From a virus: DNA of 22,654 bases. The position numbers and the translations under genes were made by a program. The stretch spans positions 108,776 through 131,429 of the IMG/VR virus record IMGVR_UViG_3300034279_001376, one strand, 5' to 3'. The notes below the pieces were generated by a model that was not told where the DNA came from, made no database searches, and saw nothing but the letters and a program-made list of their open reading frames with translations. Numbering within the stretch: position 1 is the first letter of the stretch; each line of letters starts with the position of its first letter. Positions 9,067 to 22,654 of this stretch are shown here, piece after piece.

Positions 9067-9723
9067 ATGCAAGGTATATACTGTATTAAAAACACTATTA
9101 ATGGAAAAATCTATGTAGGTTCTTCTGTAAATATTAAGAAAAAATTTCGGAACCATTTACTAAGTCTTAGAAAAAACCAGCATCCAAACTTTAAATTACA
9201 AAGTTCTTTCAATAAACACAAAGAAGAAAGTTTTATTTTTTACGTTTTAGAAGATGTACTAGAAAAAGAAAATTTAATTGCTAGAGAACAATTCCACATA
9301 GATACATTAGCCCCAGTTTACAATATTTGTTTGCTAGCAGACTCTTCTTTAGGAGTTAAAAGAACTGAAAAAACAATAGAAAAAGTACGCCAAGCAAATC
9401 TAGGTTTGAAACATCCAGAATGGAGAAATAAGATTAAAAGCATTGCTCAAGGTGGAGAAAATCACTGGACAAAGAAAAAAAATTTTTCAGAAGAAGCAAA
9501 ACAAAAAATGAGCACAACTCATAAAAAACTTTATGAAAACGGGTACGTAAACCCAACCAAAAAATCTATTTTGCAATACGATTTAGAAATGAACTTATTA
9601 AATGAATGGGAAAGTGGAGCGGCTGCAAGTAGAGGAACAGGATTAAGTACTTCTACTATATGCCAGTGTTTATCACAAAGATCAAAAACATCGGGTGGGT
9701 TTATCTGGAAATACAAAATTTAA
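9067..9723 (+). CDS. Freestanding GIY-YIG homing endonuclease
   Basis: The 218-residue product opens with a GIY-YIG nuclease domain: GIY at 3-5, YVG at 16-18, Arg28, Glu74 and Asn86 at the positions expected for catalysis. Two NUMOD3-like DNA-binding motifs follow (about 102-123 and 140-155, each with a [KQ]xR/KxxxxG-type helix). A C-terminal NUMOD1-like unit comes last, from about 167: ILQYDLEMNLLNEWES, then TICQCLSQ and GGFIWKY. This is the domain order of phage Seg/I-TevI-type enzymes, which cut a site in related genomes lacking the gene and spread by recombination. It has its own promoter and unrelated neighbours on both sides. Confidence 0.88.
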   Translation: MQGIYCIKNTINGKIYVGSSVNIKKKFRNHLLSLRKNQHPNFKLQSSFNKHKEESFIFYVLEDVLEKENLIAREQFHIDTLAPVYNICLLADSSLGVKRTEKTIEKVRQANLGLKHPEWRNKIKSIAQGGENHWTKKKNFSEEAKQKMSTTHKKLYENGYVNPTKKSILQYDLEMNLLNEWESGAAASRGTGLSTSTICQCLSQRSKTSGGFIWKYKI

Positions 9724-19523: not shown

Positions 19524-19558
19524 AGAAAGGGGGTGTCTTATACAGGCACTCCCTTTCT
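19524..19558. terminator. Bidirectional terminator between convergent operons
   Basis: A 12-pair stem (A-GAAAGGGGGTG with CACTCCCTTTC-T, one G-T pair) with an 11-base loop. Read on the - strand it is followed by a run of six T, the classic Rho-independent form, and so ends the lysis operon. Read on the + strand it directly follows the last gene but has a poor T-run. It separates the two convergent gene blocks. Confidence 0.75.
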
Positions 19559-19589: not shown

Positions 19590-19964
19590 TTACGCATCAG
19601 GATTTAATACTGGGTCTGTTGGTTTTAAACGTGCCTCACGTACTTTACGCAAAGTCACAGCCAACTGACCAGCCAATTTAACAAACTCAAGTGTGAGTTC
19701 TTCTGCAAGGTCATTACGAAGTTCTAGTTCACTCTGGATGAGTGCTGAAACTTCTGCAACTTCTGCTGCGGAAAGATCACCTAGTTCACTAGGAATAAGG
19801 TTTGCATCTTTAATGGCTGCACCTGCTACCTTTAGGGGGGATAGGACAAAGGCTGCATCAAACATGTTTACTTTACCATCTTCCAAGGCAGATGTACCTG
19901 CACTTACAAGCCTACAAGCAAATGTTACCATCTCGCTTGTCTGAATAATACCAAATTTTTCCAT
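19590..19964 (-). CDS. Helical protein at the end of the lysis operon
   Basis: I use the ATG at 19964, giving 124 residues (MEKFGIIQTSEMV...), because the longer start at 20006 would add 14 residues overlapping the upstream gene. The product is helical with an Asp-Gly turn (LEDGKVNMFDAAFVLSPL), an Ala-rich middle (SAAEVAEVSALIQSELELR) and a Pro-containing end. The pattern is familiar from Bacteroidota phage and prophage proteins next to lysis genes. The role is unknown; the Asp-rich turn could be a calcium loop, unproven. A terminator follows. Confidence 0.72.
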   Translation of the reverse strand: MEKFGIIQTSEMVTFACRLVSAGTSALEDGKVNMFDAAFVLSPLKVAGAAIKDANLIPSELGDLSAAEVAEVSALIQSELELRNDLAEELTLEFVKLAGQLAVTLRKVREARLKPTDPVLNPDA

Positions 19965-19984: not shown

Positions 19985-20686
19985 TTACAGTACAAAGGTA
20001 CTCCAATCAAACTTAGTACCATAGGATTTAAAGTTAATTTTTTGTTGTGTGACCAATTCAGAGGCTGCTTTGGTCCAACTAAGCAAAGGATGCCCTGTGT
20101 AAGTCTTAAACATAGTCTCCGTAAACAATCCATTTACCTCACCGTCTAAGGCTGGTTGTGACTCAGCAGATGCGTTTATGGAAAGAAAACTACACTTCAA
20201 AATCCTAGATTTAATAGGAATAGGAGCCGGAATAGGTAAAGTGGCTTTAATGGATTTTCTAATTCCTAAAGCATTTCTATGGACTCCACCACTAAAGCAA
20301 CAGTCAAAAATTCCCACAACTTTGATACCTTTTTTGATAGTGGCCAAGTTGTTGTTAAAATTCTTGTCCAAGAAAATCCGATTGTAAAAGCAAAATGCTT
20401 CATCCAATTCATCCTTCTCAGATTTCGAGGTTGAGGGGACTTGAGTTCCATGACCTGAATACATAATGTAAATGGTGTCTCCCTCAACTGCTTTTACTTT
20501 AACCGAGTGTAAACACCCTAGGAAATTTTCAGGAGTTGCTTCTTCGTTCAAAAGGACTTGAAATTCATCCGGTTTTATCAGATTTATCCAAGTGTTTACA
20601 TCATTGATACAACCTCTCAGGGCTCCATCAGTTCCATAATATTCAGGGTCTATTTTGTTCAGACCCATAAGAATTGCGTATTTCAT
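19985..20686 (-). CDS. Caspase/metacaspase-like (peptidase C14) protease
   Basis: The 233-residue product starts YAILMGLNKIDP, then LRGCINDVNTW, as in metacaspase-type caspase folds. The catalytic dyad is visible: His79 in YSGHGTQVP and Cys130 in DCCFSGG. Substrate-pocket acidic residues are suggested by KDELDEAF (Asp92, Asp95), and a later ASAESQPALDG followed by GLFTETMF matches the family's SAxxxQxA and G-x-[FL]-T segments. There is no signal peptide, so it should act in the cytoplasm. Such enzymes cut after Asp (caspases) or Lys/Arg (metacaspases); the acidic pocket favours basic residues. It lies between the endolysin and the last gene of the lysis operon. Confidence 0.85.
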   Translation of the reverse strand: MKYAILMGLNKIDPEYYGTDGALRGCINDVNTWINLIKPDEFQVLLNEEATPENFLGCLHSVKVKAVEGDTIYIMYSGHGTQVPSTSKSEKDELDEAFCFYNRIFLDKNFNNNLATIKKGIKVVGIFDCCFSGGVHRNALGIRKSIKATLPIPAPIPIKSRILKCSFLSINASAESQPALDGEVNGLFTETMFKTYTGHPLLSWTKAASELVTQQKINFKSYGTKFDWSTFVL

Positions 20687-20701: not shown

Positions 20702-21370
20702 TTACATAATTTTGTCCCAATCAAAAATAGGAGACAAGTCAAACTTGTTCAGCCTAAAATCTGTATGAGTTGTGATGCCTTTGAAATTAATGACTTCATT
20801 AGAATATCCTTTAGTGTATCTTACATTAGGGATTGCGTAAAGGGCACAAAGTTTGTTCTTAATCAATTTAAGGCTTACATATTGAGCCTCAGTGTACTTT
20901 GAGAAGTATCTAACATTTACATTGCCAAATCTTTTCCAAGGTTTGCTTTCCTCGTATAAATGTGTGTCAGTCATTTTACAATGTGGTCTTCCTAAGTAAT
21001 TGAAAAGAATATCTCCTTTACGTACTAGAAATCCCCAATTGCTCAGTTCTATTCCTATACTTATACGAGATTGAGCCTCATTACCTCCTAAAGCACCTTT
21101 ACCCAGATGCCACGCCCAAAATCTAGGATGGTGCAGCATGACTATTTTTCCTTGAGGAGAAATAAGAAAAGCAACACTTACTGTGCTAGATAAAAGAGTA
21201 ATAAGATCCCCTTCAAACCCGCCAGCAGTGTGATGAATTACTATTTTGGATTTTCTACCCGCCTCATTAAAGAAGTGCTTAGTGAGTTTATTGTTTGAAT
21301 AAACTTCTATTCCATTGTAATTAGTGAGTGCAAACCCGTAATTTGCGAGGATTACTTCTTCACTTTTCAT
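20702..21370 (-). CDS. Endolysin, N-acetylmuramoyl-L-alanine amidase
   Basis: The 222-residue product is an amidase_2/PGRP-type enzyme that cuts the bond between N-acetylmuramic acid and L-alanine of peptidoglycan. Visible signatures: IVIHHTAGG (zinc ligand His46), SVAFLISPQGKIV, WAWHLG, SIGIELSN (Glu108), and THTDF with His202, then KFDLSPIFDWD with Asp211 as the third likely ligand. The extra N-terminal 40 residues are not a signal peptide, so release to the cell wall needs a holin; two holin-like genes precede it. ATGA overlap with the upstream gene. Confidence 0.87.
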   Translation of the reverse strand: MKSEEVILANYGFALTNYNGIEVYSNNKLTKHFFNEAGRKSKIVIHHTAGGFEGDLITLLSSTVSVAFLISPQGKIVMLHHPRFWAWHLGKGALGGNEAQSRISIGIELSNWGFLVRKGDILFNYLGRPHCKMTDTHLYEESKPWKRFGNVNVRYFSKYTEAQYVSLKLIKNKLCALYAIPNVRYTKGYSNEVINFKGITTHTDFRLNKFDLSPIFDWDKIM

Positions 21371-21621
21371 TTGTTAGATTGATCTATTTCAGGAAACTGG
21401 TACTCGGCTGCTTTTTGAGAAGTCCTTGGTGAAATCCCTGCCACTATACTTCCTAAGATAATAATAATAGTGTTGTCCACACTTTGATTGATGTTAATTA
21501 CGTCAGTGCTAAACAAAAGTAAAGTCCCACAAATTAATGTTTGAACTACCACATAAGTAATAGGGTTGCTTATCTTGAGTTTGTCAAGATAAAAAGCAAG
21601 AAATATTTGCACATTTTCCAT
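21367..21621 (-). CDS. Holin-like two-span membrane protein
   Basis: An 84-residue protein with spans at about 20-38 and 51-63 and a polar, charged C-terminus (SQKAAEYQFPEIDQSNK). Size, two spans and position directly before the amidase, with an ATGA overlap, fit a small holin that opens the inner membrane at lysis. No sequence family is recognised, so the call depends on topology and context. Confidence 0.65.
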   Translation of the reverse strand: MENVQIFLAFYLDKLKISNPITYVVVQTLICGTLLLFSTDVININQSVDNTIIIILGSIVAGISPRTSQKAAEYQFPEIDQSNK

Positions 21622-21623
21622 AA

Positions 21624-21980
21624 TTATTTTTCTTTATTGTTGTTGTTACTTTTTGCAAAGGTATCTAAAATCTCAGAAACAATCTTGTTAAGTGTTTCTT
21701 TCCAAGGAAACTCTAAAGCAAGCCTCATTATAGTCATTCCCATTAAACCGCATATAAATGAAACAAAGGAAATGTTAAGAAAAGAAAAATGCTCTACAAT
21801 TTCAGGGCTTGCATACACCGAGAATATCACCCCCATTAAAAATTCTAAGAAATTGGACACAGTTTCTCTTTTTAAATACACATGCGAGTATATAAAATAT
21901 ACTGCACCTCCCATTATAGCATCTTTATAAGGGACAAGGAAAGACAGGATGCTGTCTATAAATTCAACGATTCTAGTCAT
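21624..21980 (-). CDS. Holin-like three-span membrane protein
   Basis: The ATG at 21980 gives 118 residues; a longer start at 22046 would overlap the upstream gene by 70 bases and add a basic, unconserved-looking leader. Hydrophobic spans lie at about 22-36, 45-58 and 68-88. The tail is polar with four consecutive Asn. It may be a second holin, an antiholin or a holin partner. ATGA overlap with the upstream gene; two bases before the next. Confidence 0.65.
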   Translation of the reverse strand: MTRIVEFIDSILSFLVPYKDAIMGGAVYFIYSHVYLKRETVSNFLEFLMGVIFSVYASPEIVEHFSFLNISFVSFICGLMGMTIMRLALEFPWKETLNKIVSEILDTFAKSNNNNKEK

Positions 21981-22471
21981 ATAATTATTTTTATGTCGTG
22001 TGGAGCAGGATAAATACCTCCAAACCAAGGTCTTATTTCTCTGCAAAAATTGGTTGTTTTACCATCTGCAAAGGTATAATTATTTTTACTACTAAATAAA
22101 GCCTTATTTCCTTCAAAGTTAATTTTTGCTTGTCCCCGACACATTAATTTATTATTTTCTTTAATTAAAGGCAAAGATTGGAGCAACCCAGATAAATGAT
22201 CTCCTTTTGGGTTGTTTACATACCAGTAGATTCCTATTTTATCTGTGTCCCAAGACCAACCTATCATGTAAGACCAGCCTTTGTTTGCAGGAGTACCGGG
22301 TGAAAAATCTACCCCACCTAGTTTATTAATACCTGCATAACCATTTTTGTGATAATATTCCGCACTTGAATCAAACTCAAAGTTTATTACTATTTCTGGT
22401 TTTCTAAACCAAACCTTAGGTAAATAAAGATTACAGGCATGATTTCCCTTTTTATGAATTATAGTTCTCAT
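21977..22471 (-). CDS. Unrecognised beta-rich protein of the lysis/tail operon
   Basis: A 164-residue protein rich in aromatic residues: MRTIIHKKGNHACNLY, then YAGINKLGG, a Trp/Tyr-rich centre (GWSYMIGWSWDTDKIGIYWY) and PWFGGIYPAPHDIKI at the end. The [FY]-F-G-G...A-P-H-[Dx]-I ending occurs in uncharacterised Bacteroidota phage proteins beside tail and lysis genes. Beta-sandwich or receptor-related roles are possible, not shown. It starts one base after the stop of the tail-fibre gene. Confidence 0.72.
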   Translation of the reverse strand: MRTIIHKKGNHACNLYLPKVWFRKPEIVINFEFDSSAEYYHKNGYAGINKLGGVDFSPGTPANKGWSYMIGWSWDTDKIGIYWYVNNPKGDHLSGLLQSLPLIKENNKLMCRGQAKINFEGNKALFSSKNNYTFADGKTTNFCREIRPWFGGIYPAPHDIKIII

Positions 22472-22472
22472 A

Positions 22473-22654
22473 TTATTTTCTAAAAATTATTAATACATAT
22501 CCATTTCCTCCATTACCTCCTCTACCAGAATTAAATCCATTCAAAGAAGCAGCACCACCTCCGCCACCTCCACCTCTAAGAGCATCACCACCTCTGCCAG
22601 CAGTTGTGGCAGAAGAACTTCCACCACCAGCACCAGCACCAGCGTAGTAAGCAC
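22473..22654 (-). CDS. Glycine-rich C-terminus of a tail fibre/adhesin, 5' part outside window
   Basis: The - strand frame is open from the right edge to a TAA at 22475-22473, giving 60 residues. The composition is mostly Gly, Ala and Ser, with several poly-Gly runs split by Arg and Asn, and a terminal GNGYVLIIFRK. Long glycine-rich tips closing with a V-[IL]-I-[IF] strand occur at the end of phage tail fibres and adhesins, where the polyglycine loops contact the receptor. Being next to the lysis genes fits this. Only the tail is visible, so the main body is not known. Confidence 0.7.
   Translation of the reverse strand, partial: AYYAGAGAGGGSSSATTAGRGGDALRGGGGGGGAASLNGFNSGRGGNGGNGYVLIIFRK

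Follow-up and report, generated by a model that had tools for sequence, protein, structure and literature searches.

A caspase-like protease encoded beside the endolysin of a phage distantly related to crAss-like phages, and its possible role in lysis

The usual account of phage lysis involves holins, endolysins that cut peptidoglycan and spanins that disrupt membranes. The stretch of DNA analysed here, a window of 22,654 nucleotides at the right-hand end of a virus record of 131,429 bases, raises the question of what a caspase-like protease might do when its gene lies directly after that of an endolysin. The protease family concerned, the C14 peptidases with the metacaspases, is well known from bacteria, plants, fungi and protists. 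An initial annotation had assigned one open reading frame (ORF) of the window to this family, at a place that the ORF list confirmed (Table 1).

Profile searches and modelling bore out the assignment. The Pfam profile PF00656 (Peptidase_C14) matched residues 3-212 with E=1.9e-14 and 54.3 bits, above its curated cut-off of 21.4 bits, and a PHROGs profile search gave no family match for the 233-aa protein. The solved structure nearest to it by sequence was that of Geobacter GSU0716 (3bij, E=9e-18), followed by plant, yeast and trypanosome metacaspases. An AlphaFold2 model built on 34 viral homologues (pLDDT 82.1, pTM 0.82, with an unreliable loop at residues 132-149) had 3bij as its top Foldseek match (E=8e-17, TM 0.79-0.82), and then the metacaspases of Candida, T. 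brucei (MCA2), Arabidopsis and yeast (TM 0.60-0.72) and MALT1. The ORF is predicted by this model to have a caspase fold, and not the different fold that would have spoken against the initial annotation.

The catalytic pair that had been proposed, His79 and Cys130, is intact and was numbered correctly. The proposed metacaspase-type pocket also found support, in that all four S1-pocket residues of T. brucei MCA2 (TbMCA2), Cys92, Asp95, Ser156 and Asp211 (PMC4357240), have counterparts in C26, D29, S77 and D128, as matched by hand from motif spacing in profile alignments with no direct pairwise alignment. Since all four are kept, the window protein is predicted to cleave after Arg or Lys at P1. 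Type I metacaspases (TbMCA2, yeast Yca1 and Candida Mca1) share the fold, the dyad and the S1 Cys/Asp/Ser/Asp set with the phage protein, which differs from them in having no N-terminal prodomain. It also keeps just two of the four TbMCA2 calcium ligands (D95 and D107), with K108 and R137 in place of Asp190 and Asp220, and thus lacks the four-Asp calcium site of a strict type I metacaspase. The Asp220 position is R or K in most phage homologues as well, arguing against a strict type I metacaspase but not against a C14B-like fold and pocket. Judged by these residues, the protein is best classed as a C14 protein of metacaspase/orthocaspase type and not as a textbook calcium-activated type I metacaspase. 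The idea that the periplasm gates the protease through Ca2+ was downgraded because two calcium ligands are absent, and a simple Ca2+ gate cannot be predicted with confidence. GSU0716, a standalone prokaryotic orthocaspase-type C14 protein, resembles the window caspase in size class, N-terminal motif and single-domain form; in contrast, it is a bacterial gene with no assigned function (a structural genomics target), has the usual DSCHSG motif and shows 23-25% identity to the phage caspase.

The caspase gene is the penultimate gene of a minus-strand operon that runs from a Gly-rich tail-like gene through a 164-aa gene, a holin-like gene, an 84-aa membrane protein and an Amidase_2 endolysin to the caspase, a 124-aa gene and a terminator-like hairpin. 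The caspase start lies 15 nt past the amidase stop on the same strand, directly downstream of the endolysin as had been described, and the strong terminator-like hairpin is found only 3' of the 124-aa gene, beyond the caspase. The protease is therefore encoded within a holin-endolysin operon, as predicted from gene layout. Regarding the earlier claim of a single, late transcript, the lysis-operon layout stood, whereas co-transcription was deduced from gene spacing and lateness was presumed; on this basis the caspase would presumably be made late, with the holin and the amidase. Known phage holin-endolysin cassettes share the holin-like gene, the small membrane gene and the amidase with this locus, but the literature searched describes no caspase component in them. 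Pfam and PHROG searches returned no family match for the 84-aa membrane protein and no recognised defence partner in the operon, which also contains no CRISPR parts. No family or phage match was obtained for the 124-aa protein in Pfam, PHROG and phage searches, and its candidacy as a conserved inhibitor was dropped as no homologue was found.

Table 1. Features of the caspase operon and of related viral loci (positions are those of the window unless a locus is named)
Feature	Position	Strand	Basis or remark
Terminator-like hairpin then U run, operon end	19524..19558	-	-16.4 kcal/mol, z=-4.58
124-aa helical protein, no assigned function, last operon gene	19590..19964	-	ORF list
Caspase-like protease (Peptidase_C14, metacaspase-type), 233 aa	19985..20686	-	Pfam, sequence, AlphaFold2 model
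Catalytic Cys130 codon, motif D-C-C-F-S-G	20297..20299	-	Cys motif partly selected by search pattern
D128, S1-pocket residue (TbMCA2 Asp211)	20303..20305	-	correspondence to TbMCA2
Catalytic His79 codon	20450..20452	-	invariant in alignment A3
S77, S1-pocket residue (TbMCA2 Ser156)	20456..20458	-	correspondence to TbMCA2
C26 and D29, S1-pocket residues (TbMCA2 Cys92, Asp95)	20600..20611	-	correspondence to TbMCA2
Endolysin, N-acetylmuramoyl-L-alanine amidase (Amidase_2), 222 aa	20702..21370	-	PF01510 E=4.3e-10; PHROG amidase/endolysin
84-aa membrane protein overlapping the start of the amidase; holin- or antiholin-like only from its position	21367..21621	-	sequence
Holin-like membrane protein, 118 aa	21624..21980	-	phrog_2359 holin E=1.2e-4
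164-aa protein, no assigned function, same operon	21977..22471	-	ORF list, family searches
3' end of Gly-rich protein, probably secreted or tail-associated	22473..22654	-	rest of gene at other contig end, G000:869, minus strand
Permuted caspases	L109:9950-10744, L114:9929-10732, L116:9721-10509, L117:9776-10561, L157:9353-10153		sequence reading
TIGR02594 endolysin near caspase	L015		curated model
M15_4 endolysin near caspase	L026, L049		curated model
NlpC/P60 + PG_binding endolysin near caspase	L041		curated model
GH24 lysozyme near caspase	L065		curated model
N-acetylmuramidase near caspase	L140		curated model
Glucosaminidase near caspase	L142		curated model
GH25 near caspase	L145		curated model
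M15_4 near caspase	L157		curated model
Amidase_2 near caspase	L109		weaker: below cut-off
M15-like endolysin near caspase	L114		weaker: homology to L157
Endolysin near caspase	L037, L023		reading of sequence alone

The Gly-rich gene crosses the contig ends, which overlap exactly over 127 bases (window 22528-22654), indicating a closed genome of ~131.3 kb although its IMG/VR class is linear. The portal matches phrog_6547 (E=4e-43) and the terminase phrog_6681 (E=6e-53), and the portal is also similar to those of csAssE-Sib and Cellulophaga phages phi17:2 and phi4:1, which we take to be crAss-like phages. The presumed capsid protein had no PHROG match, its sole similarity being to Leptolyngbya phage Lbo-JY46 at 25%. 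Upstream, a minus-strand block encodes giant proteins of 1,200-2,400 aa, among them one with a DYDYD motif, presumably the virion RNA polymerase of crAss-like phages. By these comparisons the phage appears to be a distant relative of the crAss-like phages. Scans of viral contigs with the caspase, the amidase and the major capsid protein (MCP) found no diverged close relative: the single-protein scans with the caspase and with the amidase returned no relatives, and the MCP scan returned one contig with an identical MCP gene (L057), apparently a fragment of the same virus. Two mobile-element-like features were seen elsewhere in the genome. The large terminase gene (G000:57001-59888, minus strand, locus L005, outside the window) has an apparent intein-like insertion, in that PHROG terminase, primase and helicase-loader profiles share an internal stretch at about residues 139-519, and window positions 9067-9723 (plus strand) hold an ORF (MQGIYCIKNTINGKIYVGSS...) that by eye alone resembles a GIY-YIG homing endonuclease.

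Profile-guided scans of IMG/VR identified 89 other caspase-encoding viral contigs, non-redundant at 80% identity, where "viral" denotes IMG/VR membership and not proof that each is a phage. The catalytic Cys was found in 89/89 copies and the catalytic His at its usual place in 84, with a relocated His in the other five, so the loss of either residue that could have undone the initial annotation was not seen. The Cys motif formed part of the search pattern and its invariance is thus partly selected; the His lay outside the pattern, and H79 was present in every copy whose His block could be aligned. D29, D107 and D128 vary little or not at all, and F occupies the H131 position in 21/89 homologues. 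Among 50,697 deposited phage records, just one, from a huge uncultured phage, encodes a caspase. Related proteins are widespread on bacterial plasmids (up to 36% identity), and bacterial and phage sequences are intermingled in one clade of the tree, in which the branch to the window caspase is very long (2.24 changes per site). A terminal membrane anchor, C- or N-terminal, was dropped as a general feature of these caspases since it occurs in 5/67 assessable copies; C-terminal anchors were seen on phage caspases L145, L085, L097 and L100, with similar tails in bacterial relatives L159 and L166.

The five copies with a relocated His belong to one phage clade; in them the p10 part precedes the block with the catalytic His, now C-terminal, and the Cys block follows directly after alpha 2. 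Loss of the catalytic His in these proteins was considered and rejected, since their sequences show it relocated; both His and Cys are invariant among the five. A low-confidence model (pLDDT 55) of a permuted caspase shows its strands and helices in permuted order and still matches metacaspases, and the block order was normal in all 13 cellular relatives inspected, of 21 matches. Endolysin or membrane genes lie near the permuted caspases in these loci.

Comparison of gene neighbourhoods, which the initial annotation had proposed, revealed that the caspase recurs beside endolysins of different families in unrelated phages. Nine viral contigs have a profile-supported peptidoglycan hydrolase within two genes of the caspase, representing six unrelated families, so the caspase has joined with endolysins more than once. 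Most clearly, the caspases of L109 and L114 are 69% identical and their adjoining endolysins are non-homologous, so that within a single clade the caspase is kept while the endolysin switches from amidase to M15. Endolysin-adjacent caspases are spread over several clades, with 10 changes of state on the tree. About 85% of phage caspases, however, have no recognised endolysin adjoining, and other neighbours among the matches listed include terminase, ParB, methylase, nuclease and patatin genes; a Pfam comparison of near and distant neighbours, which covered at least 25 families, was not taken as proof.

A test that needs no recognition of endolysins, in which short ORFs on the same strand as the caspase and at most two genes away were compared with farther ORFs of the same locus, found 33 short same-strand membrane proteins near the 89 caspases against 23.2 expected (p=0.001, within-locus permutation). 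The enrichment persisted when loci already read as lysis cassettes were removed (p=0.0004) and was stable over three thresholds. Across whole contigs, 6/13 endolysins adjoin a caspase (p=6e-5). Four of the contigs in this set, however, were already known to be adjacent when the families were picked, and a fifth joined the set afterwards; excluding these leaves 1/8 adjacent (p=0.28). The association of caspases with lysis genes is real but partial, and their small membrane partners could, instead of being holins, serve as defence effectors. Three related contigs carry a patatin-like phospholipase gene upstream of the caspase (L030:2700-4010, L040:7299-8420 and L143:7814-8971; profile match in L030 and L143, 50% identity in L040), whose product is a possible membrane-attacking partner. 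In addition, a staphylococcal-nuclease-like gene (L065:9619-9984) and an endonuclease-like gene (L022:9582-9986) each directly precede a caspase.

An intact caspase after the endolysin, together with similar genes beside unrelated lysis genes, suggests that a caspase may help some phages to open the host. The reading we favour, to which we give a little less than even likelihood, is that the window protein is a compact standalone metacaspase-type protease, Arg/Lys-specific and auxiliary to lysis. Produced late together with the holin and the amidase, and having no obvious signal peptide, it would either work inside the cytoplasm or escape with the amidase once the holin opens the membrane. Passing through the holin lesion alongside the amidase, it might then cleave, after Arg or Lys, host proteins such as those of the envelope or of division, and this cleavage could speed or complete disruption and virion release.

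An unlikely alternative is that the caspase acts in counter-defence or inter-phage exclusion, cutting a host immune protein or, as a module with a small membrane effector encoded nearby, killing the infected cell or shielding it against rivals. The PADLOC "caspase" defence model, which mainly recognises the domain, matches the window protein (E=1e-9). The enrichment of small membrane proteins even where no endolysin is recognised, and the many phage caspases among DNA-metabolism or other non-lysis genes, are consistent with such a role, and caspase-like proteases are effectors of CRISPR subtype III-E, whose Craspase acts in phage-bacterium conflict (PMC12805718). Craspase, however, serves host defence, and the window caspase lies in a presumably late lysis operon instead of an early or accessory region, with neither CRISPR parts nor a recognised defence partner.

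Two further readings we consider improbable. The first is that the caspase processes a protein of the virion, tail or lysis machinery, for instance by maturing the Gly-rich protein or the giant tail or RNA-polymerase-type proteins of the late block. The Gly-rich tail-like gene is indeed the first of the operon, the block of giant proteins lies upstream, and the caspases of L034 and L048 lie among apparent virion genes. An essential processing protease would nevertheless be expected to be more conserved than a gene so rare in deposited phage records and absent from the portal and MCP relatives. The second, to which we give similarly little weight, is that the gene is a recently acquired bacterial orthocaspase, an accessory at the operon end with no defined lysis role. 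The plasmid relatives and the mixed clade fit recent acquisition, as does the fact that retention is seen in no diverged close phage relative, none having been found; against this, the catalytic and S1 positions have stayed intact along a very long branch, suggesting selection and not decay, and the gene recurs beside unrelated endolysins. Finally, a catalytically inactive fold serving as scaffold or decoy, which the DCCFSG motif in place of the usual DSCHSG and the two lost calcium ligands might suggest, is very improbable given the intact His, Cys and S1 acids and the frequency of F at the H131 position among homologues.

What is known and what is new can be separated. The protease family is known, including virus-encoded metacaspases: those of giant eukaryotic viruses (Clandestinovirus, Fadolivirus and others) share the metacaspase fold and were the best matches in a viral structure library, but they have eukaryotic hosts and show 17-20% identity for the best four. 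To our knowledge none lies in a phage lysis operon. The phage lysis setting is new, in that no description of a phage-encoded caspase, in a lysis cassette or elsewhere in the genome, was found in the literature searched (most subscription journals and all bioRxiv preprints lay outside it). Phage caspases are likewise absent from PHROGs and from the closest BFVD matches, so they have probably been overlooked in current annotation.

We propose, more tentatively than the role of the window protein itself, that caspase-type proteases are a previously unrecognised and repeatedly recruited component of phage lysis cassettes, through which the phage and not the host completes cell death by caspase. 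Held just as tentatively, and jointly with recruitment to lysis, is the proposal that one phage clade rebuilt the caspase fold by shifting the block with the catalytic His to the C-terminus. If true, the presence of a caspase-class protease beside several endolysin families would add a step to the model of phage lysis and would make caspase-type killing a tool of the parasite and not of the host.
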